This document shows positions 15,625-59,487 of a stretch of DNA of 64,000 bases, piece by piece. The DNA comes from Methylacidimicrobium fagopyrum (lineage in GTDB: Bacteria; Verrucomicrobiota; Verrucomicrobiia; Limisphaerales; UBA11358). Every line of letters begins with the position of its first letter. The first letter of the stretch is position 1. Under the pieces are notes generated by a model. That model was given only the letters and a program-made list of their open reading frames with translations. It made no database searches and was not told where the DNA came from. The translations under genes were made by a program, and so were the position numbers. Location of the stretch: NCBI GenBank assembly GCA_026225255.1, contig JAMFSJ010000002.1, positions 124,001-188,000 of the forward strand, given 5' to 3'.

Positions 15625-15811
15625 AGGATGGCAGTTAAAATAGTTTTCAATGAAAACGCATTATTAAATGGGTCTTAAGGTTGCGTGATCAATTATGGAT
15701 GGTCAAAAAATAAATTCCCAGATGAATTCCCTTAAATAAGCGAACCAAAATTTTGCTGATGCGTTGACGGTTCAGTTATGAGATTCTCACTTTAATTACA
15801 TTAATACTGCT

Positions 15812-19391: not shown

Positions 19392-19407
19392 TAGGCCATT
19401 CTGCCTA
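19392..19407 (-). promoter_or_regulatory. 7-2-7 inverted-repeat operator, copy 1
   Basis: TAGGCCA-TT-CTGCCTA, which on the minus strand reads TAGGCAG-AA-TGGCCTA and so matches the other three copies (35682, 51093, 59472). It is flanked by AAT on the TAGGC side, as the others are. It lies 89 bp upstream of the ATG of the 19497 secreted protein gene. Confidence 0.7.
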
Positions 19408-22718: not shown

Positions 22719-22793
22719 AATCTTAGGTTTGCTTTCAATATCCACTGTAAAAAATAATTGCTAGTGCTATGATGAAACTATTGATGCTTGATT

Positions 22794-28083: not shown

Positions 28084-28869
28084 TCATGGCAAAAGTGTTC
28101 TGCTATCTTTGATGAACTGCGTGCGGCCGTCTAGAAAAACCCGGTCGCGGCCACCGGCGTGAATGGTGCGGCCTTTCAGCGCGGGATCAACGGTCGGAAC
28201 GGTTTGCGGATAATACGGATCAACGGCCAACTCCACATCCGTCACGCCATTGATAGGGCCAAGCGTGGCATCCGTGAGGCTCGCCGCTTCGAGGTCGGAT
28301 ACCGCTTGCGCTTGCGATTTGCCCCAAAAATCCTCCTGGCCCACGGGATCATCAGGTCGATCAAACCGCCACGCCCAATAACGGCTGAGCGGAGCGTTCG
28401 TGTCATTGCCAGTAGCTTGAACGGACTGAATGGCATTGCCGGTCGGCGAGTTCAATGCCGTGGGGCAGGACCAGATATTGAGATTTGGACAATAGCTCTG
28501 AAAATTCGTGGCCGCCCAGCCAGCGCGCGGATCGGATGGCGGCCACGTAGTCCACGGATGATAGCCGCCGGGTAAACTGTTTTTTAAATCACGCCGATCG
28601 GGAAAATGATCATTCGCGTCGTTGAGATACATTTGAAAAACCAAGCCGATCTGTTTGAGGTTCGAGAGACAGACCGCCGTTTGCCCTTTTTGTTTGGCCC
28701 GGGCCAGCGCGGGCAGCAGCAGCGCGGCTAGGATCGCAATGATAGCGATCACGACGAGCAACTCGATCAACGTAAAAGCGGCTCGTATCCGGCGGTCTTT
28801 CGCTGGCGGCGCCGCGCGGTGCTTATTGCCGGAGCACGCGATAGAAGCGGTTGGGATAGTTAGCGGCAT
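28084..28869 (-). CDS. Pseudopilin-like protein with exact H-X9-DG motif
   Basis: A 261-residue protein with a long leader (about 33 residues, basic end KDRRIRAA) before the prepilin segment [20 protein letters not shown]. The start was placed at the ATG 28869-28867 rather than the TTG three codons upstream. The C-terminus holds [12 protein letters not shown], which fits H-X9-DG exactly, marking the prepilin-type processing-associated domain of Planctomycetes and Verrucomicrobiota. The middle has conserved Cys and Trp residues ([12 protein letters not shown]). The N-terminal 47 bp overlap the 3' end of the giant protein gene upstream on the same strand, so the pair is probably co-transcribed, mirroring the 19497/21879 pair. 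Confidence 0.87.
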
Positions 28870-31800: not shown

Positions 31801-34800
31801 TGTAATGTCCCATGTTGTCGCGGTCTAAAAGATAGATTTTTCCCTCCTTGCCGCAGCCGACGATGAGGTGAGGGTGCGCGACACTCCCCGCCGAATCCGG
31901 TAGTAGCAGCGGCCCGCCGGAGCCAAGGTCGTTGTCGGCATTTTGCAAACTGAGCTGGTTGTAGGGGGTGAAATAATCTGCCACGGCCAACCGGTTCGAA
32001 GTCGTGGAAAGCTTCACAAAACTATCGGCGTAATCGCCACCGTTAGTATTTGCGCTGAACGAGCCATTGCCGGTTTCAAAATATAAATTGGTGTTCGCAT
32101 CCACGGAGAGCCCATTGCCGCCCATCCACAACGCGCCTTCACCGGCATTGTTGCCGAAGGCCGCAATGGTTGCATTGGGGGTGGTATTGAAAACGTAGTT
32201 GGTCGAGAGCACGAGATTCGTGGCGTTGTAGCCGAACACCCAGCCATGATAAGGATCCGTGTCATCATGGCTACCGTAGGCGACGTATATCATTCCGCCC
32301 GCCAGCGTCATGGCCGGACGTTCCATGTGTTGAACGGCGGAAAAGGTGACCGTGGTTCCGTTGGCCGTTTCCGTGTAGTTGTTTCCCGATATGCCGGTGC
32401 CGGGCACGGTCGCGGCCACGACTACCGGACTGTAGGCGCGTTCGGTTCCATTGGTGATGTTCAAGGCGTGGATGCGATGAAAATAATTTGTAGAAACTCC
32501 CGCGACCGTCTCCCGGGTAAACGTATCCAGATAAATCGTGCCGGTCGCCGGATCAATCACCGGCGTGGCCGCCGTGCCTTCTTCGGGAACCACATCCAGG
32601 TTGCCGACGGTATGATAACGCCGGCCATATTCAACGCTCGGCGAAGATGCCGAGATTCCCAGATTTGTCTGCCACAATAATCCCCCATTGGTATCCCCAT
32701 TACTATCGGCATCAAACGCATAAATGGAGTCATGCATAGTGGCCACAAAGACGACATTGCGCACGCCGCGCCCGGGAATATTCAGACCATTCACGATCAG
32801 CGGCTGGGCATAAACGTAGCCATCAACCGGAACAGAGAATAGTCTGCCAAAATTGGTTGAATTCACATTCCCGGGCGTCAATAGAAATTCATTCGTGTTC
32901 TGGCCCTGCCGGGTGTTGTCATAATGATAAGTCAAAACGTTGAGCCCGGAAGTATTGGGCAAAGGTAAGACGGTGAGCGTGGCGGGCAGACTATTAGTCA
33001 CCCCGAAATAGTTGGAGGCGGTCAAGGTATAATTACCGGCGGCGGCGGTCGATAGTCCAGCCAGCGTCAAGGCACTTGAAGTTGCATTGAGGATATTGCT
33101 GCCATCATGCTGCCATTGCAGTGAAATGGGCGGTGTGCCATCTACCGTTGCCGTGAAAGTGACCAGCCCGCCAACGTAGTTTGTAATTGTAGCGGGACTG
33201 GGTGGTTGCGTGAAAAGAGGTGCGGTCGGAGGATTGACTGTCAAATTTACGACCGGGCTTACATTGGTGGCGGAACTGTTGCTGACCCGCACCGAATAAT
33301 TTCCCGAAGCGGAAACGGTGGCATTCGTCAGCGTCAAGAGACTATTGGTGGCTCCGGGAATGGCAACCCCGTTGGTCTGCCATTGATATTGTAACGCAAC
33401 CAGGCCAAAGGCATTTTCAATCAAGGTCACCGTAGTGCCGCTGAATACGTTGGTGCCGGGTGAAACCAGCGGGGCGAAAACGGGCAGGAAATGGCTGGCC
33501 CCACTAAAGAAAAGTTGCAGCACCTGCGCTTGGTTCAACGAGGAATTGAAAATGGCTACCTCGTCCATGAGCCCATTGAACGTCCGTCCACCTTGAGCAT
33601 CCGCGCCGATCAAGGTGGTGCTGTTGAAAGCTTCGGCGGTGCTGGCGACCGCATTGGTGGCAAACTGCACGCCGTTGGTATTGCACAGATAGATCACAGC
33701 GTTATCAGGCGAGATGACCAAAGAAATAAACGACCACTGTTGCACCGGCGGCACCAGGCCGGAAATCCAATTGTAAGTGTTCCCGTTGTTTTGGTTCCAA
33801 GTATAACCCAATTGCCCGCCCGTCTTAATGTTTAAACCTGACGCATCGCCATTGGGGCGGCAGAATACCAGCCCGCTATTATCCCCCGGCGTGCCGATCG
33901 GATAAATCCAAGCGGTGATCGTGACGGTGTTAGTGTTTAGATTGAGTTGCGGCAGGGTGACGAATGAGTTGGCCGCACTGCTATTGAATTGAGCTGCCGT
34001 ATTAAATGACTCCAACCCCGCAAAACCAGCGACGGGATTTGGTCCGGACACGCCATCCGTCGCGCCGGAGCCATAAGTTCCGTTGAAGTTTCCGGTCAGG
34101 TCTACCGCCGTTAAATTTCCACCCGCAGTGCTATTCGTTTCGTTGAGCCGCCAATAACCGATGGGTTTGGCTTGGCTTACCGCCGCGACAAAGGTTGCCA
34201 GCGATTGAACGGTCAATTGTGCCGTGCTGGTGGCCACCGGTCCACCGATTGAATTTGACGCGAGCAAAGTATAGCTTCCCGCATTCGCCAGTTGCAGATT
34301 CGTCAAGGTGAGGGCGGCGTTGGTCGCGCCCGGAATGTTCGCCGCCCCGCTGCCGGTGTTCGCCTGCCATTGATAGTAGATCGGCAACGTGCCGTTAAAC
34401 GCGGCGGAAAAAGTCACGCTGCCGCCCACGTAGCTCATGGAGAAAGATGGCGCGATGTCGGCGACCAGCACCGGCGAGCTCGCGGCGACTAGATTCAGGG
34501 TCACGATGCTGCTCGTGGCGCTGCCCAGACTGTTGGAGACAACCACGTCGTAATGGTATGTTTTAGGTGGCCAGCCCGAAGTTGTAATCACCAAATTAGT
34601 GGTCAGCGCGCCGGGGATGTTGGTGCGCGATCCTGCGCTTCCACCATCGGCCTGCCATTGGTAGTAAAGCGGAGATTGACCACTGGCCGTTTCGCTCAAA
34701 ATCACCGTGGTGGCGGCGTAAATGGGATTGTTAGTCGGGGAAATTGTCGGCGAACTTGGGATCGGAGAATTGACCACGGCCACGACCTCGATGCCATTCA

Positions 34801-35509
34801 ACGGTGAGCGCCAGACGCTTGAATTAGTTTCCGAGGCGATGGTGATGACCCCGCTGACGGGGACGACATTATCAATTTCAATATAATTACCGAAATCCGA
34901 AGCGGCGGCAGTGGCGGTGTTGAAATTCGCGGCATAGGTTTTCGCCTTCACGAAGCCGGTAAAGGCGCCCCCAACAGTTGCGCTGGATGTATTAAACGTC
35001 GAGGTTCCGCTTCCCAGTTGAGGCGCGTAATAGATCATCCCGTTGATCGAATAATTAGGGAGTCCATCACCATTATTGCTGGGATGGGAGGCATCACTAT
35101 AAATATAAAGAAACACATTATAGGCTGCCCCGGTCAGACCGGAAATCGTGCTGACTACCGAAACGCCGCTGCTGTGATTAGCGCCGGCATCAACATAACC
35201 GTTCATCAACGATCCATTGCCCCCGTCGGCGGTGGTGCCGCTGTGCCAACTGCCGGCCGCCGCCCCGCCGCTGAGCCCTAATGTCGCCGAGACGGATCCA
35301 TCGCTGGAATGAATTGTCCCGGACGTGAAGGTTGTGGCTGGAATATTGTTCCAATTGGTGATCGGCACCAAGCCCGCCGAACTGGTAACTGGGACAGCGG
35401 TATCGCCGACAAAATTAATCCCGAACGATTCCGCCCCCGCGAGCACTTCCGCCAGGCTGAGCGCCAGTAGGGCGAAAAACGTTGCCAGAATACCGTAATT
35501 TTTTTTCAT
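28823..35509 (-). CDS. Giant secreted multidomain protein: novel N-domain, Ig, LamG, quinoprotein-like propeller, PA14 and diheme cytochrome
   Basis: A 2228-residue exported protein. Approximate order: signal peptide (1-26); novel domain starting ESFGINFVG (27-245); two Ig domains (250-435); LamG (445-665); two Ig domains (670-850); a propeller of the PQQ-like family starting [16 protein letters not shown] (855-1345); chitobiase C-terminal domain (1350-1425); PA14 (1430-1570); Ig-like (1575-1670); HNE_0200/SO2930-type module with two CxxCH sites, CLQCH near 1903 and CAQCH near 1986; a second chitobiase domain (2055-2130); and a tail ending FYRVLRQ. From the propeller onward it is a relative of the 51320 protein. 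The frame is uninterrupted. An operator lies in the divergent gap upstream (35682). Probably an extracellular glycan-binding redox protein; neither bound PQQ nor catalysis can be shown from sequence. Confidence 0.88.
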
Positions 35510-35681: not shown

Positions 35682-35697
35682 TAGGCAATGTGGCCTA
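35682..35697 (+). promoter_or_regulatory. 7-2-7 inverted-repeat operator, copy 2
   Basis: TAGGCAA-TG-TGGCCTA, flanked by AA before and TT after. It lies in the divergent gap between the giant protein gene (ATG at 35509, minus) and the GH2-SGNH gene (ATG at 35736, plus), 38 bp upstream of the latter. An in-frame ATG at 35688 falls inside the repeat and is therefore unlikely to be the real start. Confidence 0.75.
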
Positions 35698-35735
35698 TTG
35701 GGTTTTTTAAAAAAACCGCTAGCTTCGTTTTAAGC

Positions 35736-38700
35736 ATGTATTCCTCTATCGCAATCTCATTGGCTTTTACGACAACCAGCAAGTTTGGAAAATTAAGAGC
35801 TTCCATAGTTCTAATTGTTTTAACAGCGCTCGCGTTGGTTTTTGTCAACGCTGCCCAGGCTTCCGAAAATATTTCGCCACGCGAAAAATTATCCTTGGAT
35901 TTTGGTTGGAAGTTTTATCTGGGCAATCCTTGGGGCGACGTGATGAATCTGGCCAAGGCGGGTGACAATGGCGGACCGGCCAAGCCTGGTTTTTCCGATG
36001 TTGACTGGCGCACCGTTAATCTGCCGCATGATTGGGCGGTGGAACTGCCGTTCGATCGCACGGCCGATGTTAATCATGGTTTCAAACCCATTGGGCCGAA
36101 ATTTGAGACTAATGACGTCGCCTGGTATCGGCGCAACCTTGAATTGCCCCGGGCGGATGCGGGTAAGCGGTTGTGGCTTGAGTTTGACGGCGTGTATCGC
36201 GATTGCGATGTGTTCGTTAACGGGTGGTTTGTGGGGCACCACGACGATGGTTACGACAGCTTTTATTACGACATCACCGACGTGGCGCTTCCGGGTGCTA
36301 AAAATGTCATCGCGGTGAAAGTGAACGCCGCGCAATTTGAAGGTTGGTTTTACGAAGGCGCGGGGATTTATCGGCACGTCTGGTTGGTAAAAACTGCGCC
36401 GCTGGCCATCGCGCCGGACGGTATTTTTGTCGCGAGCCAATTCAAAAATAATTTTCCCCAAGGCGCCGCGCAGATCAATGTGGAAGCCAGTTTGTTGAAC
36501 CTGCAAACCAATTCGGCGGCGGCGACGGTGGTTTGCGAAGTCATTTCACCCGCCGGCCAAACGGTGGCAAAATTCACCACGTCGGGAACGGTGGCCAAGT
36601 CAGTTCCGCAAACGGTGCGGCTGCATGGAAAAGTATCGTCGCCGGTTCTCTGGTCGCCGGAATCACCCAAACTTTACCAGCTTATCACGACGGTTGAGTG
36701 CGACGGAAAAGTGGTAGACCGGAAGGAAACGGAATTTGGCATTCGCACCGTGGCCTACGATCCGAACGCCGGATTTTTATTGAACGGCAAGCATTATGAA
36801 ATTCAAGGCACCTGCAACCATCAGGACGCGGCGGGGGTCGGGGTCGCCGTGCCCGATGCCTTGCAGTATTTCCGGATCGCCGCGCTGAAAGCAATGGGTG
36901 GCAATGCCTATCGCACGTCGCACAATGCGCCGACGCCGGAATTATTGGAAGCGTGTGACCGGCTGGGAATGTTGGTGCTGGATGAAAATCGTTTGTTCGG
37001 CAGTGACGCGCAAAATCTGGCGCGGCTCAAAGGTCAAATCCTGCGCGACCGCAATCATCCCAGTGTCTTTACCTGGTCGCTGGGCAATGAAGAGTGGAAC
37101 GCTCAAGAGACCGCTACCGGCGCGGCCACCACTCGAACCATGCAAGCCTTGGTTGATGCGTTGGATCCGACCCGTCAATGCACCCTGGCGGTTAATGCCG
37201 GCGCTTATGGCGACTTTGGCATTTTTTCCGCGCTCGATGTGAAGGGGTTTAACTATCACTACGAAAGCATGGACGCTTATCATGCGGCCTTTCCGAAGGC
37301 GAACATATTGGGCACCGAACAGGCCAGTTCCATCGGCACGCGGGGCATTTATACCAACGATGCCGCGCGGGGTTATGTCACTGCTTACGACGATTATAAT
37401 CCGCGCTGGGGCTGTTCCGCCGAAGAATGGTGGAGTTACTTTGGTCCGCGTCCGTGGGCTTCGGGCGGTTTTGACTGGACCGGATTTGATTATCGCGGCG
37501 AGCCGACGCCCTATCAGTGGCCCTGTATTAGTTCGCACTTTGGCATTCTCGACACCTGTGGTTTTCCGAAGGATAATTTTTGGTATTACCAATCGTGGTG
37601 GACGACGAACGTTGTGCTACACCTGTTGCCGCATTGGAACTGGACGGGGCGGGAAGGTCAGGAAATCAGTGTGCGGGCTTTGAGTAATTGTCAGGAAGTA
37701 GAATTATTTTTGAATGGTCAAAGTCGGGGGCGCCAGACCATGAAAAAGTTTTCTGAGCTGAGGTGGATGGTCAAATATGAGCCCGGCACACTTTCAGCCA
37801 AAGGTTACAACAATGGAAAAGTTGTCGCCCAGACCAAGGTTGAAACGACCGGCGAACCGGCAGCGGTCACCTTGACGCCGGATCGCGCCACGATTGAGGC
37901 CGACGGGCGGGATGTGAGCGTGATTACCGTGGCGGTGACGGATGCGCAGGGCCGGGTGATGCCGCTGGCAACCAACCTGGTTCGTTTTACCTTGAGCGGC
38001 CCCGGCCAAATCATTGGCGTGGGTAACGGCGATCCTACTTGCCACGAACCCGATAAATTCGTGCGCAAACCTAATGTTGAACTGATTCCGATAAATGACG
38101 GCTGGCATTTTAAAGTTTTGCCGGACGTAAGAAATCAACAACTGGCCGAGCTGCAACCCGCTTACGATGATTCTAACTGGAACCAAGTAAACACCATGGC
38201 CAATGCAGATTCATTGGTGGAACCGGGACAGGCCATTTACCGCACGCATATTTCCGTGCAGGCCGGAGACTTGGCGAACGAAGCGGTGCAATTGAAAATC
38301 GGTCGGATTGATGACACTGGCTGGGTGTATGTTAATGGCAAGCTCGTGGGCGAATCTCATGACTGGGCAGCGTCGCCGAGCTTGGAAATAAAACCGTTTT
38401 TGCGCGTCGGCGACAATACGATCGCGGTGGCCGTCATCAACGCCGATGGTGCCGGTGGGCTAGGCAATAACGTGGTTTTGAAATTCGTAAAAAAGCCCGA
38501 GCCTTTAGAATGGCAGAGGAGCATCTTTAACGGTTACGCGCAAGTTCTGGTGCAGTCTGAAATGGCGGCCGGTGAAATTAAGCTGACGGCAACTGCGAAT
38601 GGCCTAGCGTCGGCGGTGGTGTTGATCAACACCGCAGAGTCCAAGCATCAGGATGACTTTGCGTTAACCACGACGGCGTCCGCTTATTTGACGGACTTTC

Positions 38701-39992
38701 ATCCCGTCAAAGCTCCGATCATCGCTGGACTGCAATTGAAAGCCGGCGATCGGGTGGCGATTTGCGGCGATTCTATCACCGAGCAGAGAATGTATTCCCG
38801 ACTCATGGAAGATTATCTGACGATGTGTGTGCCGCAATTAAAGGTCACGGTGCGTCAATTTGGCTGGAGCGGTGAAACGGTGCCGGGTTTTTTGTCACGC
38901 CTGACGAATGATTGCCTGCGCTTCAAGCCAACCATTGCGACTACTTGTTATGGCATGAACGATTTTGCGTATCGCCCGTATGAAGACCGCATCGGGCAGT
39001 CTTATCAGAATAACTCGACTAAGATGATCGAAGATTTCAAGGCGAATAACGTTCGCGTGATTCTCGGTTCGCCCGGTCCGGTGAGCAAAGTGCCGCCGTG
39101 GGTGCATTCGGCGACCACGACGACGGAAGATCTGGATTTAAGTTTGTGCCAGTTACGTAATTTAGACATCGGTCTCGCTGACCGTGAGGACGTCGGGTTC
39201 GCCGATGTTTTTTGGCCTATGTTTAATGCGAATATTATTGGACAACAAAAATATAGCGCCGCCTACGGCATTCCCGGAAATGATGGCGTGCATCCGCATT
39301 GGGCCGGGCATTTGGTAATGGCTTTTGCTTTTTTGAAGGCGATGGGCTTGGAGGGTGACATTGGAACATTCAACGTTGATTTGAAGCATAACACCATGAC
39401 TGTTTCGGCTGGGCATCAAGTGGTTTCCCAACAAGCTGGTGAATATAAAATTGTAAGTAGTCTTTATCCCTTTTGTGCCAGTGCACCGGCCGGCGAGGCG
39501 GCAGCTTCCTATCCGGTCGGCGGGCAGGATCCAGTGACCTCGGATAATAGCATCCAGTCAGGCATGACGCTCGTCCCCTTTAATCAACAACTGAATCGGT
39601 TAAGGCTGATAGTCAACCATGCGGCGGCTAAGCAATATCAAGTCACTTGGGGCCCGGAAAGTAAGACGTTTACGGCGCAACAATTGACGCAAGGCATTAA
39701 TTTGGCGGCGGAGTTTCCGGCTAATCCATTTAGTTCGGCTTTTGCCAAAGTAGATGCGGCAGTCGCGGCCAAGCAAGCGTATGAGACGAAACAAATCCAA
39801 AAATTGTTTCGTGGTGGCAACGGCACGAACGATGATCAAATCAGCGGAAACAACGGGATGAACATGGCCCAAGTGGCGGCGGTAACGGAGCGAGTAGCGG
39901 CGAGAGCGGAAAAAGAACATGAGGTATTTGCTGACGCCGTGCTGTCCTCATTTGTGCCGGTAACTCATGTGATCAAAATCACGGCCCAATAA
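35736..39992 (+). CDS. GH2 beta-galactosidase-type enzyme fused to an SGNH/GDSL esterase domain
   Basis: An exported enzyme of 1418 residues from the ATG at 35736. An in-frame ATG at 35688 lies inside the operator, and the later one leads straight into a signal anchor ending VNAAQA. The N-terminal GH2 part has sugar-binding, Ig-like and TIM-barrel domains. It shows acid/base Glu in SLGNEEWN (about 450) and nucleophile Glu in LGTEQASS (about 525), followed by Ig-like domains (about 640-960) with IEADGRDVSVITVAVTD. An SGNH hydrolase domain (about 1000-1200) follows, with block I ICGDSITEQ and block V DGVHPHWAGH, including catalytic Ser, Asp and His. The GH2 part is paralogous to the 48088 protein, which lacks the esterase. 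Likely removes beta-galactosyl units and acyl groups from a decorated polysaccharide. Confidence 0.9.
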   Translation: MYSSIAISLAFTTTSKFGKLRASIVLIVLTALALVFVNAAQASENISPREKLSLDFGWKFYLGNPWGDVMNLAKAGDNGGPAKPGFSDVDWRTVNLPHDWAVELPFDRTADVNHGFKPIGPKFETNDVAWYRRNLELPRADAGKRLWLEFDGVYRDCDVFVNGWFVGHHDDGYDSFYYDITDVALPGAKNVIAVKVNAAQFEGWFYEGAGIYRHVWLVKTAPLAIAPDGIFVASQFKNNFPQGAAQINVEASLLNLQTNSAAATVVCEVISPAGQTVAKFTTSGTVAKSVPQTVRLHGKVSSPVLWSPESPKLYQLITTVECDGKVVDRKETEFGIRTVAYDPNAGFLLNGKHYEIQGTCNHQDAAGVGVAVPDALQYFRIAALKAMGGNAYRTSHNAPTPELLEACDRLGMLVLDENRLFGSDAQNLARLKGQILRDRNHPSVFTWSLGNEEWNAQETATGAATTRTMQALVDALDPTRQCTLAVNAGAYGDFGIFSALDVKGFNYHYESMDAYHAAFPKANILGTEQASSIGTRGIYTNDAARGYVTAYDDYNPRWGCSAEEWWSYFGPRPWASGGFDWTGFDYRGEPTPYQWPCISSHFGILDTCGFPKDNFWYYQSWWTTNVVLHLLPHWNWTGREGQEISVRALSNCQEVELFLNGQSRGRQTMKKFSELRWMVKYEPGTLSAKGYNNGKVVAQTKVETTGEPAAVTLTPDRATIEADGRDVSVITVAVTDAQGRVMPLATNLVRFTLSGPGQIIGVGNGDPTCHEPDKFVRKPNVELIPINDGWHFKVLPDVRNQQLAELQPAYDDSNWNQVNTMANADSLVEPGQAIYRTHISVQAGDLANEAVQLKIGRIDDTGWVYVNGKLVGESHDWAASPSLEIKPFLRVGDNTIAVAVINADGAGGLGNNVVLKFVKKPEPLEWQRSIFNGYAQVLVQSEMAAGEIKLTATANGLASAVVLINTAESKHQDDFALTTTASAYLTDFHPVKAPIIAGLQLKAGDRVAICGDSITEQRMYSRLMEDYLTMCVPQLKVTVRQFGWSGETVPGFLSRLTNDCLRFKPTIATTCYGMNDFAYRPYEDRIGQSYQNNSTKMIEDFKANNVRVILGSPGPVSKVPPWVHSATTTTEDLDLSLCQLRNLDIGLADREDVGFADVFWPMFNANIIGQQKYSAAYGIPGNDGVHPHWAGHLVMAFAFLKAMGLEGDIGTFNVDLKHNTMTVSAGHQVVSQQAGEYKIVSSLYPFCASAPAGEAAASYPVGGQDPVTSDNSIQSGMTLVPFNQQLNRLRLIVNHAAAKQYQVTWGPESKTFTAQQLTQGINLAAEFPANPFSSAFAKVDAAVAAKQAYETKQIQKLFRGGNGTNDDQISGNNGMNMAQVAAVTERVAARAEKEHEVFADAVLSSFVPVTHVIKITAQ

Positions 39993-48087: not shown

Positions 48088-50991
48088 TCAAGGCACAAAA
48101 GCTGAGAATTTTCCCGGAGTTGATTCGATGGTTTCATTGGCGGTCGAAAGACCTTCGGCGGTCGCGGTCAACTTGATTTCGCCCGCCGTGTGCGTGGATT
48201 GCACGATGACCTGCGCGAGACCGTTGAACACGCTGCGCTGCCAATGTGGCGGAATGGGTTGAAACTGGTAGGTCAACGTCACCCCTTGGGTGATGCCGCC
48301 CGGTCCGCCATCATTGGCCACGCCGATGGCAAGGGTGTTTTCGCCCGGGTGCAAGAATCGTTTCACTTCGAGCACCGCGGGCATGCGCCGGACAGTTGCA
48401 TGCCCAATCCGCTGGCCGTTTACATAAATGTCGCCGTCATCGTCAATCCGTTGAAACTCCAACTTCACCGTATCGGCCGCCAAATCGTTTGCGCTTACTT
48501 GAAACCGCGCGCGAAAGACGGTTTGCTGGTGTTCCCGCAACTGACCGTTGTCGGATCGCACATCGGTAGTTGGCCAAGAAGAATCATCGTAATTCAGGCT
48601 GAACTCAGGCAGATCGTGCCGCGCATCGGCGACTGGCTTGAAGCGCCAACCTGCGCCCAGCGATTGGGAATGCACGGGGTATTGCGTTAGATAAACATCC
48701 GGCTCATGACACGCGGGATCGCCATTACCCACGCCGATGATTTTCCCTGGCCCACTCAATTCAAAATGGATCAGATTATTTGCCCCCGGCACAATCCTGG
48801 CGTGCGTGTCCGTCACCGAAACCGTGATTAAACTTAAGTCTTCGCCATCCGCTTTAATGAGGGGCCGGTCACCGGTAAGTTGAATGGCCGCCGCTTGGCC
48901 GGTAGTTTCAACCTTAGTTTCCGCAACCAGTTTTCCAGCGTTGTAACCTTTGGCTGAAAGCGTGCCGGGCGCGTATTTTACTAGCCATTGCAGATGGGAA
49001 TTTTTAGACATCGTCTTTTTGCCGAGGCTTTGCCCGTTCAGGAACAGTTCGACTTCCTGACAATTACTAAAAACGCGCACGTCTATGTCTTGGCCTGCCT
49101 TGCCCGGCCAGTTCCAGTGCGGCATCAAATGCAAGACCGGCTGGTGCGTCCACCATGATTGATAGTAATAATAAACGTCCTTCGGAAAACCGCAGGTGTC
49201 GAGGATGCCGAATTCCGAGTTGATGTTCGGCCAGCGGAACGGCGACTCTTCGCCGCGATAATCAAAACCAGTCCAGACAAACGAGCCACTTGCCCACGGA
49301 CGCGCCGAATAGTATTGCCACCATTCCTCCGCCGTTGTGCCATAATCTGGCTTATTGCCTTCATACGCCGATTGGTAGTTAGCCGTATTTTCATAAATGC
49401 CGCGGGTGAAGTAAGCGCTGGATTCCTCCGTGCCGATACAGGGAATGTTGGGGTTCGCCTCATGAAATTTATCCATGTCGCCGCGATGGAGATAGTTGAA
49501 ACCTTGGACATCCATGACTGAAGAAAAACCATCCGCTGGGTCCGCTTCAACGCGCCCATCCATCGCGGCCGTGCATAACCGCGTCGGATCCAGTTGATGA
49601 ACCAGATCTTGCATGGTTTTAAAAATACGCGCGCCGACCGCCGACCGCTGGTAGGAGTGTTCTTCGTTGGCTAATGACCAGATGAAAACGCTCGGATGAT
49701 TTTGGTCGCGTCGGATTTGCTGTTCAAGATAAGCCAGATTTTGCGGGTCGCTGCCGAGCAACCGGTTTTCGTCCATGACTAACATGCCCAACCGGTCGCA
49801 CGCCTCCAGCAATTCGGTCGTCGGCTCGTTGTGGGAGGTGCGGATGGCGTTGGCACCCATTGCTTTCAGCGTGGTGACGCGAAAATTTTGCAACGCGTCG
49901 GGTAACGCCGAGCCAACGCCGGCATGGTCTTGATGGTCACAAGTGCCCTGGATAGCATAAGGTTTTCCGTTCAGTAAAAATCCATTGGTGGTATCGAAGC
50001 CCACGGTGCGGATGCCAAATTCCGTTTCGACCCGGTCAGTCGTTTGCCCATCACGCAAATCTGTCAGAACCGTGACCAACTTATAAAGCTTGGGTGATTC
50101 CGGCGACCACAGCTCATAGTTAGCTAGTGACGTGACATTGGTGATTTCTATTTCAGACAAGGGAGGAACCGTCACGGTAGCTTGAAATTTCTGGAAGCGT
50201 TTTCCTTCCGGATTTTCAATCACAAAAGTGACCGGCACAAAAATGGAATTGGTTAAATTATTTTTCAGCCGGGTTTGAACCTGAATTTCTGCTTTACCCG
50301 CCGGCACATTGTTTTGGAATTGGCTGTAAACAAAAATTCCGTCCGGCGCGACCGCCAGAGGCGCGGTTTTTTCCAGCCAGACATGTCGGTAAATGCCGGC
50401 GCCCTCGTAAAACCAGCCCTGAAATTGCGAGGCGTCTACGCGTAGGGCGAGGACGTTTTTACCACTGCAATTAGCGACATCGGTTATGTCGCAACGGAAA
50501 CTATTGTAACCACTACCATGATGCGCTAGCGGAAAGCCGTTCAGAAAGACCGTGCAATCACGATAAACTCCGTCGAAATCCAGCCAGAGACGTTTGCCGC
50601 GATCGTCCGCCTTCAAGGCAAATGCGCGGCGATACCAGCCGACGCTGTTGGTGGGAAAACCGGGGCCGACCGGTTTATAGCCGTGATCGTAATTAGCATT
50701 GGCGTCGAAAGGCAGTTCCACGACCCAGTCATGCGGCAAATTAACCGTCCGCCAGTTTGAATCGTTGAAATTTTGATTGGCGGGGCCGGAGCTTTCACCC
50801 GCTTTGGCAAGGTTTTCACCCAAACCCCAGTCATCGCCCAGATGAAATTTCCAGTCGGAGTCCAATAACAATTTTTCGCGCGGTAAATCAGTTTCGGCCG
50901 CGCAGGCGGTGAAATTTAAACTTCCAAAAACGCTCATTAAAGCGAACAACGGAAGTAATCGACTAAGCCGGGCATAACTAAAATGTGTCAT
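48088..50991 (-). CDS. GH2 beta-galactosidase-type enzyme
   Basis: A 967-residue exported GH2 enzyme, paralogous over its whole length to the N-terminal two thirds of the protein at 35736. The ATG at 50991 was chosen; an upstream TTG would add 13 polar residues before the signal sequence (about 7-31 of this numbering, ending TACAAE). GH2 domains in order: sugar-binding (LPHDWVVELPFDA), Ig-like, TIM barrel with acid/base Glu in SLANEEHS (about 440) and nucleophile Glu in IGTEESSAY (about 520), then GH2-type C-terminal and Ig-like domains (KADGEDLSLITVSVTD). The SGNH domain of its paralogue is missing, but a separate SGNH gene follows within 20 bp. An operator lies upstream (51093). Confidence 0.92.
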   Translation of the reverse strand: MTHFSYARLSRLLPLFALMSVFGSLNFTACAAETDLPREKLLLDSDWKFHLGDDWGLGENLAKAGESSGPANQNFNDSNWRTVNLPHDWVVELPFDANANYDHGYKPVGPGFPTNSVGWYRRAFALKADDRGKRLWLDFDGVYRDCTVFLNGFPLAHHGSGYNSFRCDITDVANCSGKNVLALRVDASQFQGWFYEGAGIYRHVWLEKTAPLAVAPDGIFVYSQFQNNVPAGKAEIQVQTRLKNNLTNSIFVPVTFVIENPEGKRFQKFQATVTVPPLSEIEITNVTSLANYELWSPESPKLYKLVTVLTDLRDGQTTDRVETEFGIRTVGFDTTNGFLLNGKPYAIQGTCDHQDHAGVGSALPDALQNFRVTTLKAMGANAIRTSHNEPTTELLEACDRLGMLVMDENRLLGSDPQNLAYLEQQIRRDQNHPSVFIWSLANEEHSYQRSAVGARIFKTMQDLVHQLDPTRLCTAAMDGRVEADPADGFSSVMDVQGFNYLHRGDMDKFHEANPNIPCIGTEESSAYFTRGIYENTANYQSAYEGNKPDYGTTAEEWWQYYSARPWASGSFVWTGFDYRGEESPFRWPNINSEFGILDTCGFPKDVYYYYQSWWTHQPVLHLMPHWNWPGKAGQDIDVRVFSNCQEVELFLNGQSLGKKTMSKNSHLQWLVKYAPGTLSAKGYNAGKLVAETKVETTGQAAAIQLTGDRPLIKADGEDLSLITVSVTDTHARIVPGANNLIHFELSGPGKIIGVGNGDPACHEPDVYLTQYPVHSQSLGAGWRFKPVADARHDLPEFSLNYDDSSWPTTDVRSDNGQLREHQQTVFRARFQVSANDLAADTVKLEFQRIDDDGDIYVNGQRIGHATVRRMPAVLEVKRFLHPGENTLAIGVANDGGPGGITQGVTLTYQFQPIPPHWQRSVFNGLAQVIVQSTHTAGEIKLTATAEGLSTANETIESTPGKFSAFVP

Positions 50992-51092
50992 AGAGGTGTT
51001 TAAATTTTCCACGGGTGAATCATTCGCCAAAATTCCTTGGGCCTAGTTTTTTGGAAGGTTCAACTTTACCCGAACCTGTATTGCCCGCCCAA

Positions 51093-51108
51093 TAGGCCAC
51101 ATGGCCTA
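51093..51108. promoter_or_regulatory. 7-2-7 inverted-repeat operator, copy 3 (perfect)
   Basis: TAGGCCA-CA-TGGCCTA, a perfect 7-bp inverted repeat with 2-bp spacer, the best of the four copies. It is flanked by CAA and ATG. It sits in the divergent gap between the GH2 gene (ATG at 50991, minus) and the propeller-cytochrome gene (ATG at 51320, plus), about 100 bp from the first and 210 bp from the second. Confidence 0.75.
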
Positions 51109-51319: not shown

Positions 51320-54300
51320 ATGAAAATTCTTTGCCCGTTGGGAATGGTCGTTGCCGTTTTGATCTTGGCTGCCAGCCGCGCGGCCGGGGAATCAATGTTG
51401 ACCTACCACCACGACAATGCCCGGACGGGCGCGAACACGAACGAGGTGTTGTTGACGCCGGCCAACGTAAACCTAAAGTCGTTTGGCCGGCTGCGAAAGT
51501 ATGCCGTGGACGGTTATATCTATGCTCAACCGTTGTATTATTCCGGGCTGACCATTCCCGGCAAAGGCGTGCGCAATGTCGTCTTTGTCGCGACGGCTAA
51601 CGACAGTGTTTATGCCTTCGACGCGGACAACGCCGAGGGCCCGGACGGCGGGTTGTTGTGGCACGATGATTTGGGTGAGGGCATTGACCTGGTCAACCGG
51701 CACGAGATCGGCGGACGTTATCACGACAATACTTTTCAAGATATGCTGCCGCAGATCGGGATAACGGGAACACCGGTGATTGATCCGGTTGCCGGCACGC
51801 TCTATGTGGATGCGTTCACGCGCACGGAGAAGGATGGCGCTCCCGTTTATCATCACAAGTTGCATGCCTTGAATATCACCGATGGTTCGGAACGATCGTT
51901 CAGTCCCGTGGAGGTGGCCGCGTCGGTGCCGGGCACGGGCGTTGACAGTGTCAACGGCGTCGTCACCTTCAATCCCCGCCGACACATCCAGCGACCGGCC
52001 CTCACGCTGGTGGGAGGGATTTTGTTCGTAGCCTATGGCAGCGCCGCGGACACCGATCCGTATCATGGCTGGATCATGGGTTTTAACGCGAGCAATCTCC
52101 AGTTGCTGCCGCATTACGTTTTCAACACGACGCCCAATGCGACGCGGGAGAAATTCGGTCCGCACGCCGGGGAAGGGGCGTTGTGGATGGGCGGTGACGG
52201 GTTAGTCGTAGATGCGGAAACTAATTTATTTTTTGAGGTCGCCAACGGCAGTTTCGACGCCGATCCATCACTGGGAAATGGGATTAATTACGGCGACTGT
52301 TTCATGAAGCTTTCTACGACCGGCAACCGGTTGGCAGTGGCGGATTACTTCACGCCGTTCAACCAGGCGGAGATGCAGGCGGACGATGCTGATTTTGGTT
52401 CGGGTGGGGCGCTGTTATTGCCCGATGAAGCGGGTAGCGCGGCGCATCCCCATCTCATCGTTGGCGGTGACAAGTCCAGCCATATCTATCTCGCCGATCG
52501 CGATCAGATGGGGCATTACCGTCCGACGGATAATCATCAGCTCGTGCAGGAGGTTTACGCCGACATCGGCCGGATTTTTAGCACGCCCGCTTATTTTAAT
52601 TTTCATCTCTATTACCAGGGCATCGGTGGGGTGATGAAGGCCTTTGCCATCACGAATGGTTATATTACGCCGACGCCGGATTCGGTGACGCGCACGAGCT
52701 TTAGCGGGTTCGGCACGACGCCCTCCGTTTCGGCGAATGGCCGGCGCGATGGGATTGTGTGGACGATCCAGAGCGACGGCGCAGTCCAGCATCGCCCCGC
52801 CATTTTACATGCCTACAACGCGTTGAATCTGGCGGAAGAATTATACAACAGCAGCCAGTTGCCCGAACGCGACAATCCCGGCAACGCCGTCAAGATGTCC
52901 GTGCCGACGATCGCGGACGGAAAAGTGTTTGTCGGTGCGCAACAGGATTTGGCGATCTTTGGGAACGGAGTTTTTCTAACCGCGCCGGTGATGTCGCCTG
53001 CCGGCGGTAATTTTAACAACGCAGTTTCCGTGACCCTGGCTGATGGCGAGCCGGACGCGGATATTTACTACACGCTGGACGGCAGCGCGCCGACGCTTCA
53101 TTCCCTGCATTATCGGACGCCGTTGGCGGTGACGAATTCGGTGACGATTCGCGCGCTGGCGGTGAAACCGGGCGCCGTCAGCAGCCCCGTGGCCAGCGCG
53201 GATTTCGTTAACACCGCGGCCGTCGGCGGCGGCACGGGACTCCTCGGCCAATACTGGGCTAATACCAGCGCGTCGGATTTCACCAATGAAACTTTTGCCG
53301 CGTCGCCCAGCCGGACACACATCGACCCTACCATTGATTTTAACTGGCGCACTAACGGCCCGGCTCCGCTGATTGGCGCCGATCATTTGATCACGCGCTG
53401 GAGTGGCTCGGTTCAGCCGCAATACGACGATGACTACACTTTCGCCGTCGTTTCTTCGGGCGGCGTGCGGCTTTGGCTCAATGACCACTTGTTGATCAAT
53501 GACTGGTCGACGCAGTCATTGTCCGTGACGAATCAAGGTGTCCTGCCATTGCACGCGCAGCAATTTTACAATCTCCGTTTGGAGTATGCCAATGGTGCGG
53601 GCGGGCCAGTTCAATTGCTCTGGCACCGGCCGTCTACGAAATCTGAAATCATTCCGCAAACCCAGCTTTACCCGCGCCCGACGGCGTCACCCACGGTTGA
53701 TTTTGTTAATCCGGCGCCGGACGCCACGTTCACCGGCAGCGCCAGCGTCACCGTTGGCGTCGAAGCCAAGTCTACTTTTAATCAAATCGCGAACGTGAAA
53801 TTTTTTGCCAATGACCGGTTACTCGGCGAGCTAAGCCAAAGTCTTTACGCACCCACCTACGCGCTGACCACGACCGGACTGGCGGCGGGTAGTTACGCTT
53901 TGACTGCCATCGTCACGGATGGAAGCGGTTTGAGCGGCACGTCCGCACCGGTTCAAATCACCGTGACCGCTGGCAGCGGACAGCCCTACGGTTTGACCAA
54001 CCGGGTGAAGGTGGTGCCTTTTCTCAAAATGCCCGCCAGCTTTGGCGACGCGGTGCCAACCTTGCTTTCCGGCACCGGCGTGTTCGGCGATATCGCGGCA
54101 CGCACGCCGGTGGCGGGATTAATTCCCTACCATCTGAACGCGCCGATGTGGTCGGATGGCGCGGTGGCAAATCATTTTATGGCCGTGCCAAATCGGGGCG
54201 ACACTATCACGCCCGACGAACAACTGCGGTTGCGCCCGACCGGTTTCTGGAAATTTCCTGACGGCACCGTCTTCATCAAAAATCTGGATCTCGTCGTGGA

Positions 54301-55030
54301 TGAAACGCATCCCAACGCGCGGCCTCGGCGGTTGGAAACGCAAATCCTCGTGCGCGACAACAACGGCGCAGTTTATGGGGCGACTTACAAATGGCGGACG
54401 GATAACCGCGACGCTGATCTGGTTACGGCTGGATCGAGCGAGGACATCGCCATCACCAACGCCACCGGCGTCCGCACGCAAACCTGGTATTACGCCAGCC
54501 CGGCGGATTGTCTGACGTGTCACACGCCTGGCGCCGGCTACGTGCTCGGAGTCAACGCCCGGCAGTTCAACGGCGAACTCACGTATCCCGCCACCGGCGT
54601 CACCGACAACCAGATTCGCACCTTGAACCGGCTGGGCCTATTTAGTCCCGCGATCAACGAAGAAAAAATCAGTGGCTTCGCAAAACTCGCGACGATCACG
54701 GATTCGAAGGCTTCGCTTGAAAATAAAGTTCGCTCCTATCTCGATGTCAACTGTGCGCAATGTCATCGGCCGGGCGGCACGGGCATCACCTTTGATGCTC
54801 GCTACGACACGCCGTTGGCCGACCAGCATCTTATCAACGCGCCGGCCGCCGTGACGCTCGGCTTGAGCGATGCCCGGATTGTGAACCCCGGAGAAATAGA
54901 GCGTTCGGTGCTCTATCAACGCCTCACCAGTGCGGTTCCCACCGTGAAAATGCCGCCGCTATCACACAGCCAAGTTGACGCTCGCGCCACGCAGGTTCTG
55001 GGCCAATGGATTAACACGCTGGCCAAGTAA
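51320..55030 (+). CDS. Secreted quinoprotein-like propeller fused to PA14 and diheme cytochrome
   Basis: A 1236-residue exported protein. Signal peptide (1-22), then a PQQ-like-family propeller beginning LTYHHDNARTGANTNE (about 25-545), a chitobiase C-terminal domain (about 555-625), PA14 (about 630-775, YDDDYTFAVVSSGGVRLWLNDHLLINDW), an Ig-like domain (about 780-890) and an HNE_0200/SO2930-type module (about 900-1230) with CLTCH at 1064 and CAQCH at 1145. It is a relative of the second half of the 28823 protein, lacking the novel domain, Ig and LamG front and the tail. An operator lies about 210 bp upstream in the gap shared with the GH2 gene, and an intrinsic terminator follows. It is likely an extracellular or cell-surface redox protein; substrate and electron acceptor are unknown. 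Confidence 0.88.
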   Translation: MKILCPLGMVVAVLILAASRAAGESMLTYHHDNARTGANTNEVLLTPANVNLKSFGRLRKYAVDGYIYAQPLYYSGLTIPGKGVRNVVFVATANDSVYAFDADNAEGPDGGLLWHDDLGEGIDLVNRHEIGGRYHDNTFQDMLPQIGITGTPVIDPVAGTLYVDAFTRTEKDGAPVYHHKLHALNITDGSERSFSPVEVAASVPGTGVDSVNGVVTFNPRRHIQRPALTLVGGILFVAYGSAADTDPYHGWIMGFNASNLQLLPHYVFNTTPNATREKFGPHAGEGALWMGGDGLVVDAETNLFFEVANGSFDADPSLGNGINYGDCFMKLSTTGNRLAVADYFTPFNQAEMQADDADFGSGGALLLPDEAGSAAHPHLIVGGDKSSHIYLADRDQMGHYRPTDNHQLVQEVYADIGRIFSTPAYFNFHLYYQGIGGVMKAFAITNGYITPTPDSVTRTSFSGFGTTPSVSANGRRDGIVWTIQSDGAVQHRPAILHAYNALNLAEELYNSSQLPERDNPGNAVKMSVPTIADGKVFVGAQQDLAIFGNGVFLTAPVMSPAGGNFNNAVSVTLADGEPDADIYYTLDGSAPTLHSLHYRTPLAVTNSVTIRALAVKPGAVSSPVASADFVNTAAVGGGTGLLGQYWANTSASDFTNETFAASPSRTHIDPTIDFNWRTNGPAPLIGADHLITRWSGSVQPQYDDDYTFAVVSSGGVRLWLNDHLLINDWSTQSLSVTNQGVLPLHAQQFYNLRLEYANGAGGPVQLLWHRPSTKSEIIPQTQLYPRPTASPTVDFVNPAPDATFTGSASVTVGVEAKSTFNQIANVKFFANDRLLGELSQSLYAPTYALTTTGLAAGSYALTAIVTDGSGLSGTSAPVQITVTAGSGQPYGLTNRVKVVPFLKMPASFGDAVPTLLSGTGVFGDIAARTPVAGLIPYHLNAPMWSDGAVANHFMAVPNRGDTITPDEQLRLRPTGFWKFPDGTVFIKNLDLVVDETHPNARPRRLETQILVRDNNGAVYGATYKWRTDNRDADLVTAGSSEDIAITNATGVRTQTWYYASPADCLTCHTPGAGYVLGVNARQFNGELTYPATGVTDNQIRTLNRLGLFSPAINEEKISGFAKLATITDSKASLENKVRSYLDVNCAQCHRPGGTGITFDARYDTPLADQHLINAPAAVTLGLSDARIVNPGEIERSVLYQRLTSAVPTVKMPPLSHSQVDARATQVLGQWINTLAK

Positions 55031-56825: not shown

Positions 56826-59414
56826 TTACTGGAGTTGCACCTGATAAAATTTCTGCGGTTGACTAGGTATTACTGTGAACGGTGATATGGCATCCGTGTT
56901 GGTGATCCAAGGTCCAGTCACCGTAGTTGACTCCAAAAGTATGCCGCCATTGGGCCAAGTTAGGGTCAGCTGGTTGCCGTTCCAGCGATTGGTGATTTGC
57001 GGCGGCAAGGGCAGTCGATTGCGGGTGAAAAATTGCAACTCGGCCACATTGCAAGCGCCGTTGTTAGGCCCAAGGTAACGGACGTAACGAAAAGCCGTAG
57101 AATTTGTAATCGTCTGGGAAGTAACGACGCCATTCTCCGGCGGCGTTGTCGCAATTGTGAAAAGTGTGCTGGGGCTATTAAAGGTGAAATTATTTGCTCC
57201 TTGAAAAACCCCGCCCAACATCCGGCCGGAGTAACCGGCGCGCGGCCAGTAATTGATTTGCCCGATCACATTACTGACTCCCACGCCAAAGTCAAAACCC
57301 ACCCAATCCCCGCTGTTATCGGGCCCGTCAAAATAAGTATTTAAGTTGCCATCAAATACCTTTGCGACCGTGTTGCCGCTGTTGCTCCACGATCCACTGG
57401 TGCCAATAATTGTCCCGCTTATCTGGTTGGTGCAACTAATAAACCCGGGTTCGCTGGCGGGCGTCGCTTGCGTCATGGCCACGGCATTGACTGCCCAGTT
57501 AGCGATGATATCAATGTTTGTCGGCGTTGGTTGCGTCCAAGCATTCCAAGAAATATTATAATCGGCGCGCCGGTCAGCCCAAGCGGCATTGGCATTCGCC
57601 AACATCCAAGAGTAATAAGTGCTCCATAAATTATTATCTTTGACGAAGTGTCCCAGGCCGCGCGCAAATTCGGCGGCCCAGGTGTTTAAGTAAGTGGCAC
57701 CGTTGTTGAAAATACCATTAGACGTAAGGTTGTTCCTCGTAAATTCGACGTCGATGAGCGCGTCATTATAATAAACCGACTGCCCCGTGATATTGTGCAA
57801 CAAATTAGCACAGTCGAGAAAGGTCCCTTGGTTATAGAGGTTGGGAGTCGTATTAACTACTCCATTGGTAGAAATATTACCACAAACTAAACCCGTTCCC
57901 GGAACGAAGAGATTGGTGCGCACCCAGCTATAAATTTGGACCGCCCGATTCAAATAATTTGTGTCGCCCGTGCTTTGATAGATCATACAGACCGTTTGCA
58001 GCAGGCTATCGCAGGCCAGGGGATTTTTGCCAGGCTGGCCGTTGTTATCCGAAGGTTGTTCCTCCCAAATGCCTCCGTTATTATAGTTGGTGTCCCACCC
58101 ACGCGCAAAGGCCAGGTTAAAACCATATTCGGCTTGGGCTAAAAAATTGGCGTTGCCCGTCATTTGATATCCCCGCACTAAGGCTAGCGAAAACCATCCG
58201 ATGTCGTCGTTCCAACCATCATTCCACGGCGGCGGATTTTGCATCAGCCAAGTAGTGCATAGATTATTAATTAATTGCTGCTGCTGGGGACTTTGAGTTC
58301 TCTCAAAGGCATCTTCCTGACCTTGAATGTCGATCGAAAAAGTCCATGAACCATCCGGGGCGCTGTTGCTCAAGCTCTTTGCATAATAAGCGAAACCATT
58401 CGTTTGAACTAAGTAGGCTCGGTTGAAAGCATCGATCTGAAAATCTGCGATGGTTGGGACGACGACGTTTAAATGGGCGACTACGCTGGTGACCGAACCG
58501 AAACTATTGGTCACCACCACGGAATAATCCCCGGTATCGGTCAAAGCTAGATTTGTCAGCGTCAGCAAATTGGTTTGCGCTCCGAAAATATTTCCGCTGT
58601 TAGTCAAATTGATACCGTTTTTGCGCCAATTATAAAAAGCCGGCGCCGCGCTTTTAATGGTCACCGAAAATTGCGCTGCGCCATTGGTGTAAAGCCGTAG
58701 CGCCGCTGGTTGGGTTTGTATCAATGGGGCGCTCGTGCTCGCTACAATTTCAATGCCATTGAGTGGCGAACGCCAAGTCCGATTGTCCGAGTTGGCCGAA
58801 ATAGTGATCACTCCATTGATCGGGATGACATTATCAATCTCGATGTAATTGCCATAGGCGAGTGCTGGCGGGTAGAGATTATTGTTTACCGTAGTGACGC
58901 CGCCTTGAATTAATCCCGGGAAGGCGCCATTTCCATTGAGGGTAGCGGTATAATGCGCCGTGCCGTTGATCGTATAGTTTGGCAGCCAATCGCCATTGTT
59001 GCTCGGACGGGCAGTATCGGCGGCGGTATATAGGTAGACCGTATAAGCCGCCCCTATGAGGCCGCTGATAACATTGGTCGCGGGCTGGTTTGCCGAACAG
59101 TCGTTGTAGCCGTCCAGCAAGGATCCATTCCCGCCGTCGCCGGCCGATGCGCTGTGCCATGCGTTTGCCACACCCGCGCCACTTCTTGTCAGAGTTGCGG
59201 AAACTGAGCCATCGCTTGAAAAAATCGTTCCCGAAGTAAAAGTCGAGGTGACAATGTTTGTCCAACCTGTGATCGCGATCAACCCCGCACGGGCGTTAAC
59301 AGTCGTGGCGGAATTGCCTAAGAATTTGATCCCAAACGATTCGGCTTGAATGACACATTCATTATCAATCGCAAGAACAGCTAAAACCAGACCGACAATT
59401 TTGGAGAAATTCAT
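56826..59414 (-). CDS. Secreted GH76 mannanase with novel N-terminal domain and Ig
   Basis: An exported protein of 862 residues from the ATG at 59414, chosen because it begins a signal peptide (MNFSKIVGLVLAVLA) directly; upstream in-frame starts (59447, 59471) lie closer to or within the operator. Order: signal peptide; novel domain beginning ESFGIKFLG (about 25-235); Ig-like (about 240-330); GH76 catalytic domain (about 340-650) with the Asp pair in WNDDIGWFSLALVRG and the NQGTFLDCANLL motif; a discoidin-like domain (about 670-800, GSWSNSGNTVAKVFDGN, RYVRYLGPNN); and a short tail ending FYQVQLQ. An operator lies 58 bp upstream of the start. It links the unnamed domain to a mannan-degrading enzyme and is the only one of the three carriers with a recognised hydrolase. 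Confidence 0.88.
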   Translation of the reverse strand: MNFSKIVGLVLAVLAIDNECVIQAESFGIKFLGNSATTVNARAGLIAITGWTNIVTSTFTSGTIFSSDGSVSATLTRSGAGVANAWHSASAGDGGNGSLLDGYNDCSANQPATNVISGLIGAAYTVYLYTAADTARPSNNGDWLPNYTINGTAHYTATLNGNGAFPGLIQGGVTTVNNNLYPPALAYGNYIEIDNVIPINGVITISANSDNRTWRSPLNGIEIVASTSAPLIQTQPAALRLYTNGAAQFSVTIKSAAPAFYNWRKNGINLTNSGNIFGAQTNLLTLTNLALTDTGDYSVVVTNSFGSVTSVVAHLNVVVPTIADFQIDAFNRAYLVQTNGFAYYAKSLSNSAPDGSWTFSIDIQGQEDAFERTQSPQQQQLINNLCTTWLMQNPPPWNDGWNDDIGWFSLALVRGYQMTGNANFLAQAEYGFNLAFARGWDTNYNNGGIWEEQPSDNNGQPGKNPLACDSLLQTVCMIYQSTGDTNYLNRAVQIYSWVRTNLFVPGTGLVCGNISTNGVVNTTPNLYNQGTFLDCANLLHNITGQSVYYNDALIDVEFTRNNLTSNGIFNNGATYLNTWAAEFARGLGHFVKDNNLWSTYYSWMLANANAAWADRRADYNISWNAWTQPTPTNIDIIANWAVNAVAMTQATPASEPGFISCTNQISGTIIGTSGSWSNSGNTVAKVFDGNLNTYFDGPDNSGDWVGFDFGVGVSNVIGQINYWPRAGYSGRMLGGVFQGANNFTFNSPSTLFTIATTPPENGVVTSQTITNSTAFRYVRYLGPNNGACNVAELQFFTRNRLPLPPQITNRWNGNQLTLTWPNGGILLESTTVTGPWITNTDAISPFTVIPSQPQKFYQVQLQ

Positions 59415-59471
59415 TTGCGGCATTTTACGTTGGAAAGACATAGACATAACTTGCCAAAGCAATTCGGACAA

Positions 59472-59487
59472 TAGGCATTATGGCCTA
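59472..59487 (+). promoter_or_regulatory. 7-2-7 inverted-repeat operator, copy 4
   Basis: TAGGCAT-TA-TGGCCTA flanked by CAA and ATC, almost the same context as copy 3. It lies 58 bp upstream of the ATG of the GH76 fusion gene (minus strand), a distance compatible with a promoter-proximal activator or repressor site. Confidence 0.75.

Follow-up and report, generated by a model that had tools for sequence, protein, structure and literature searches.

The gene at positions 51320–55030 (+) of the DNA analyzed here, a window of 64,000 nucleotides from the genome of Methylacidimicrobium fagopyrum (assembly GCA_026225255.1, contig JAMFSJ010000002.1, positions 124,001 to 188,000), probably encodes a secreted sugar dehydrogenase of the quinohemoprotein type, which would be co-expressed with a GalA-type beta-galactosidase under the control of a NarL-type two-component system. 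The window contains two divergent pairs of a GalA gene and a propeller-cytochrome gene, and the same reading holds that these pairs arose by separate assembly around a single regulon. Its computed basis comprises the architecture and fold of the protein, the conservation of active-site and heme residues, the exchange of the propeller for a glucose/sorbosone dehydrogenase (GSDH) in related fusions, the pqq neighborhood of relatives, and the conservation of an operator together with its regulator; from these we infer the binding of pyrroloquinoline quinone (PQQ), the substrate, the electron route, and the binding of the operator.

The open reading frame (ORF) runs uninterrupted over 1236 codons, and its product, a putative PQQ-type quinohemoprotein (the short propeller-cytochrome), starts with a Sec-type signal peptide. 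A beta-propeller (residues ca. 25–552) is followed by three modules recognized by Pfam, CHB_HEX_C (560–625), PA14 (654–781), and Big_7 (791–863), which separate it from a TIGR03806-like diheme region (913–1234). Residues 15–1234 share 55.6% identity (BLASTP) with residues 847–2073 of another protein of the window, the giant propeller-cytochrome (28823–35509, −; 2228 aa; segment in common at 29291–32971). The giant also has an N-terminal front with Ig and Laminin_G domains and a C-terminal tail that are not present in the short protein, which confirms the description in the first-pass annotation, made by a model from the sequence alone, of the short protein as the giant without its lectin-like front and tail. 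Plasmid-borne relatives in Caballeronia and Acidisarcina are annotated as ‘PQQ-binding-like’ or ‘pyrrolo-quinoline quinone’.

The propeller (51392–52975, +) is probably a relative of the PQQ-dependent alcohol dehydrogenases (PQQ-ADHs) that binds PQQ and works like a member of this family. An AlphaFold2 model based on 72 homologs (predicted local distance difference test, pLDDT, 94) has the eight-bladed fold of PQQ-ADH propellers according to both Foldseek and VIA-align. The best Foldseek match is PedH (6zcw; E 2e-14), followed by Eu-MDH, with BamB propellers close behind; in VIA-align, the longest alignments among the matches listed are those with the PQQ-ADHs XoxF (6dam; Z 27.9 over 409 residues) and PedH (411–412 residues). 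The only matches of a propeller profile among the PDB sequences are two quinohemoprotein ADHs, both weak (8gy2, E 0.035; 1kv9, E 0.13), and a comparison with nine TIGR03075 PQQ-ADHs from the same order using hhalign yielded a probability of 94 (E 1.2e-7). The catalytic residues of PQQ-ADHs are well established, and in both profile comparisons D358 falls on the catalytic aspartate and K385 on the PQQ lysine. Together with W289, they are invariant in the homologs (72/72), and N309, which falls on the Ca2+-binding asparagine, is kept in 69 of the 72.

The C-terminal region of the short protein contains two heme domains. The model of the SO2930 family of diheme cytochromes (TIGR03806) is aligned over its full length (2–314) with an E-value of 2.6e-59 and a score of 201 bits, which is below its cut-off of 313. 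The first heme domain (54044–54577, +) ends in a CLTCH motif (54509–54523), and its AlphaFold2 model (pLDDT 89) is a beta-sheet with the CXXCH motif at the C-terminal end (model residues 184–188). The top 15 VIA-align matches are all cytochromes P460 or c'-beta (Z 4.8–7.0; next match, 3.4); although Z-scores below 8 are modest, the consistency of the family among the matches to this model is notable and suggests a P460/c'-beta-like fold. PF16694, the P460 family of Pfam, is matched weakly, by 8 of the 31 members (lowest E-value, 0.06), and a sequence search of the domain against PDB gave no match. The second heme domain (54752–55027, +) is a class I cytochrome c with a CAQCH motif (54752–54766) and the invariant methionine of a KMPP motif (54950–54952). 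The resemblance of the first half of SO2930-type diheme cytochromes to a P460/c'-beta domain is found both here (54044–54577) and in a stand-alone cytochrome of the window (23384–24766); Pfam misses this domain in the window protein. Among the papers listed in a literature search on SO2930, all were unrelated.

Three independent lines tie the propeller family to PQQ. The first is the exchange of the propeller: in all six proteins examined among those that match only the cytochrome, one of them from this genome, the TIGR03806 region is fused to a GSDH, a member of a second family of PQQ dehydrogenases (PF07995; loci L322 2366–5494, L323, L324, L327, L328, and L329). Fusions of GSDH to a TIGR03806-like diheme region are common in the order. 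The second line is the presence of pqq genes beside family members. In the verrucomicrobial genome G275, a gene from the clade of the short protein is immediately and convergently followed by pqqE-D-C-B, all of which score above the NCBIfam cut-offs (L175 6846–9897), and homologs of pqqB, pqqC, and pqqE are located beside another propeller gene (L219). The third line is a TonB-dependent receptor of the window (24763–26943, +), which is related to the PQQ importer PqqU/YncD (NF041535, E 1e-46, below the cut-off; PDB 6v81, E 5e-36), together with a TIGR03866-like ‘PQQ-dependent catabolism-associated’ beta-propeller (26945–28027, −; E 8.5e-76; 255 bits, cut-off 287). The gene for the nearest relative of the receptor (59%, in genome G010) immediately precedes pqqB-C-D-E and has the same orientation (L278 5810–11377). 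An order-wide search of 293 genomes found pqqC above the cut-off in six. Most bearers of PqqU do not produce PQQ, and no PQQ synthesis genes were reported for the PqqU-bearing Verrucomicrobia of the same study (PMC12124388), which contrasts with the presence of pqqBCDE in G275.

Several observations weigh against a PQQ enzyme. In VIA-align, BamB-type propellers (Z 28–30) and also designed propellers score slightly higher than the PQQ-ADHs, which align longest, so that the fold alone is not decisive for PQQ. The propeller is matched by no model of Pfam or NCBIfam, including those for PQQ enzymes, and the Ca2+-ligand glutamate is not clearly kept in the hhalign comparison with the TIGR03075 proteins. 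The translated propeller has a single cysteine and is missing the adjacent Cys-Cys pair typical of PQQ-ADHs; the short protein is therefore not filed in the TIGR03075-type ADH family. The search for PqqC found none in this genome (86% complete), and no PqqE above the cut-off was found in the 15 genomes searched, where TIGR02109 gave generic radical-SAM matches below the cut-off. The PqqU-like receptor reaches 159 bits on NF041535 (cut-off 1200) and is missing from most genomes with the fusion. Among the published PQQ-binding residues it keeps only K274 and R304 and not Y99, R365, and R536 (pairwise alignment); its specificity for PQQ therefore rests on context.

The scores of the BamB-type propellers, the lack of a matching PQQ family model, the missing Cys-Cys pair, and the failure to detect PQQ synthesis genes in this genome (PqqC and PqqE searches) would suit a BamB-like binding or scaffolding domain that is not a PQQ enzyme, which would make the short protein a carbohydrate-tethered cytochrome. 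Such a role is unlikely, given the invariance of the catalytic aspartate and the PQQ lysine in 72 homologs, the pqq genes beside family members in two genomes, and the presence of GSDH ahead of the same cytochrome.

The postulated co-expression of the quinohemoprotein with GalA is based on a 16-bp inverted repeat, TAGGCCAYRTGGCCTA, that is present in both divergent intergenic regions between GalA and propeller-cytochrome genes. The partner of the short gene encodes a GalA-type beta-galactosidase of glycoside hydrolase (GH) family 2 (48088–50991, −; 1040 bits on NF041462; ORF 48088–51030, likely ATG start at 50991), and the site between them, TAGGCCACATGGCCTA (51093–51108), is a perfect 7-2-7 inverted repeat with half-sites TAGGCCA and TGGCCTA around CA (0 mismatches). 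The partner of the giant gene encodes a GalA-type GH2 enzyme with a C-terminal GDSL hydrolase (35736–39992, +; 1059 bits; ORF 35688–39992, likely ATG start at 35736), and the corresponding site, TAGGCAATGTGGCCTA (35682–35697), has 1 mismatch to the palindrome. Both partners pass the NCBIfam cut-off for GalA (NF041462; 900 bits), and they share 56.6% identity across 967 aa (BLASTP). Each operator lies inside the intergenic region, in agreement with the divergent arrangement originally described for both pairs. Further copies are located just upstream of a GH76-type gene (59472–59487, 2 mismatches; gene 56826–59471, −) and between a histidine kinase gene and an Ig/Laminin_G gene at 19497 (19392–19407, 3 mismatches). 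The four sites in the window compare with 0.41 expected by chance, and none of 100 shuffles reached four. Throughout the 3.9-Mb genome, only the operators at 51093 and 35682 are found at ≤1 mismatch, and at ≤2 mismatches there is one site outside the window, on another contig.

The 7-2-7 inverted repeat has the geometry of NarL-type sites, and it is a well-supported candidate target of the NarL-type two-component system encoded at 14995–19249. The putative operator binder is a NarL/LuxR-type response regulator (14995–15624, −; Pfam Response_reg and GerE), and its partner is a HisKA_3 histidine kinase with a PA14 domain (15812–19249, +). Three genomes have an ortholog of the regulator (the present genome; G285, 80%; G084, 82%), and in each of them an operator lies directly behind the kinase gene and precedes a gene of the Ig/Laminin_G type; at five loci with 60–66% paralogs it is absent. 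In G084, the regulator, the operator, the Ig/Laminin_G gene, and a GalA-like protein of 2027 aa are encoded in one run (L315 5513–15487); in G285, an additional operator copy is located upstream of the tandem GalA orthologs. Two other interpretations of the operator were rejected. It is not a general trait of propeller-cytochrome genes, as a scan of eight related propeller-cytochrome loci found no site of ≥11/14 in them and gave sites solely at the regulator locus of G285; nor is it likely to be a LacI-type site, as there is no LacI gene among the window proteins scanned and the NarL-type pair adjoins one copy in three genomes.

The first-pass annotation had interpreted the two pairs as a duplicated functional cassette. 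While the existence of two divergent pairs with one operator each and with both partners paralogous holds, their duplication as one unit does not. Duplication would mean that an ancestral block of GalA, propeller-cytochrome, and operator was copied, and that the lectin-like front and tail were acquired by one of the copies or lost from it. This is very improbable, even though the propeller-cytochromes (56%) and the GalAs (57%) are paralogs of about equal identity, the divergent layout and the operator are alike in both pairs, and a common clade of the two window GalA lines is not rejected (approximately unbiased test, p-AU 0.19). Trees and synteny largely point to pairs that were assembled independently and are not linked elsewhere. 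In a tree of 42 propeller-cytochromes, the short protein falls into a clade with the short-architecture proteins of G285, G288, G275, and G243 (and of G215 in a second tree), and the giant into a clade with the long proteins of G285, G299, G051, G293, G222, and G239; each of the two has its own ortholog in the close relative G285. A tree constrained to unite both with these orthologs in a single clade is worse by 270 log-likelihood units and is rejected (p-AU 1.07e-05). G285 has two GalAs in tandem on contig C267, and in the tree of the GalA proteins these are the respective sisters of the two window GalAs. Although G285 possesses all four orthologs, it has neither pair, because its GalAs are arranged in tandem on one contig and both propeller-cytochromes are located elsewhere, without an operator.

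Divergently from its tandem GalAs, G285 encodes a protein with GDSL, F5/8 type C, and Laminin_G domains. A 445-aa ORF divergent from the short gene of G285 was discarded because it seems to be merely the antisense image of a forward ORF of 385 aa; likewise, the GH27 identity considered for the upstream gene was not borne out, the translations being the 385-aa ORF, to which no family was assigned, and a lactonase-type propeller.

The divergent pairing is also not conserved in relatives. Of the GalA loci found outside the window, 30 in number, only one has a neighboring propeller-cytochrome (G243:C72, divergent), a count that may underestimate the linkage of these genes since some loci end at contig edges. 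The GalA of this locus belongs to a lineage other than that of the window GalAs (p-AU 7e-9), and in G215, the sister genome of G243, the two orthologs are located on separate contigs. The conserved neighbors of the giant are not GalA genes but the TIGR03866 propeller, a stand-alone TIGR03806-like diheme cytochrome (23384–24766), and a 199-aa gene (22788–23387; both in 22788–24766, +). The 199-aa protein has no family match; in many relatives, its gene is located beside giant-type genes and the gene of the stand-alone cytochrome. G084 holds the regulon core, and a search at E 1e-60 gave no match to a propeller-cytochrome there. We conclude that the GalA genes and the operator are members of the regulon and that the propeller-cytochromes were brought beside the GalAs separately rather than copied as a cassette, because the propeller-cytochromes are not sisters, G285 lacks both pairs, and the pair of G243 uses an unrelated GalA.

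The P460/c'-beta family includes NO-binding and hydroxylamine-oxidizing members, and the fold of the first heme domain (Z up to 7.0) might suggest that the P460-like heme is itself the catalytic center, acting on NO, hydroxylamine, or peroxide with a propeller that merely recognizes a ligand, but this is hardly credible, as the examined loci show links to sugar-type dehydrogenases and GH genes and not to recognized nitrogen genes.

If the short protein is a sugar-oxidizing quinohemoprotein, the regulator and its kinase (14995–19249) would sense a glycan-related signal and act on the 7-2-7 operator, so that GalA and propeller-cytochrome are switched on together from the shared divergent region. 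GalA would free sugars from a glycan that probably contains galactose, and the CHB_HEX_C and PA14 modules may hold the quinohemoprotein on the carbohydrate. The propeller, with PQQ and the catalytic Asp358, would oxidize a hydroxyl group of a sugar or a sugar derivative, and the electrons would pass from the P460/c'-beta-like heme via the C-terminal class I cytochrome c to the respiratory chain. Hydrolysis and oxidation of one glycan would thereby be switched on as a joint response. The surrounding part of the window (40061–62112) is a dense glycan-degradation cluster (a second GH2, GH76 twice, GH92, and GH43), followed by a fused phosphotransferase system protein (enzyme I-HPr-EIIA).

It is conceivable, albeit more tentatively, that the short protein represents a new class of bacterial quinohemoproteins, with an ADH-type PQQ propeller, built-in carbohydrate-binding modules, and a P460-type heme as acceptor, in a host that scavenges PQQ; its co-expression with beta-galactosidases would make glycan hydrolysis and sugar oxidation one regulated step. 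If the proposed function is true, it provides a testable role for a propeller family that occurs in Verrucomicrobia, Acidobacteria, and Proteobacteria and for which ‘PQQ-binding-like’ is the best name given so far, and the uncharacterized SO2930-type diheme cytochrome would be the electron acceptor of two families of PQQ dehydrogenases. The short protein would, in addition, be a bacterial counterpart to the cytochrome-linked PQQ sugar dehydrogenases of fungi, placed within a glycan-degradation regulon.

Among the known systems, the type II quinohemoprotein ADHs (1kv9; membrane relative 8gy2) combine a propeller and a C-terminal cytochrome c in one chain. The short protein shares with them the eight-bladed propeller, the aligned catalytic aspartate and PQQ lysine, and the cytochrome c at the C-terminus of the same chain; it differs in lacking the Cys-Cys pair and a TIGR03075 match, and adds carbohydrate modules between propeller and cytochrome and a P460-like heme domain. 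The GSDH-TIGR03806 fusions of the same order (G000:C10, L322) have the same C-terminal diheme region behind a propeller of the PQQ-dehydrogenase type, but GSDH (PF07995) replaces the ADH-type propeller, and PA14 and CHB_HEX_C are absent. Verrucomicrobial cytochromes c of the planctomycete type (PSCyt), fused to carbohydrate-binding modules such as PA14 or Laminin_G domains, have been proposed to play a role in carbohydrate use (PMC5615132); in the short protein, by contrast, the match to PSCyt1 is marginal, PSD domains are absent, and a dehydrogenase-type domain is present. As in Escherichia coli, which has PqqU (YncD) and YncE, the window has a PqqU-related TonB receptor beside a YncE-like propeller, although the receptor scores below the PqqU cut-off and the published key residues are partly conserved. 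The closest functional analog of the short protein is CcPDH, which is fungal, has an N-terminal heme-b cytochrome, and belongs to a different PQQ family that is sGDH-like and six-bladed. CcPDH, of family AA12, is secreted and combines a PQQ sugar dehydrogenase with a cytochrome domain (PMC4332668); it has been reported to drive lytic polysaccharide monooxygenases (PMC5960967).

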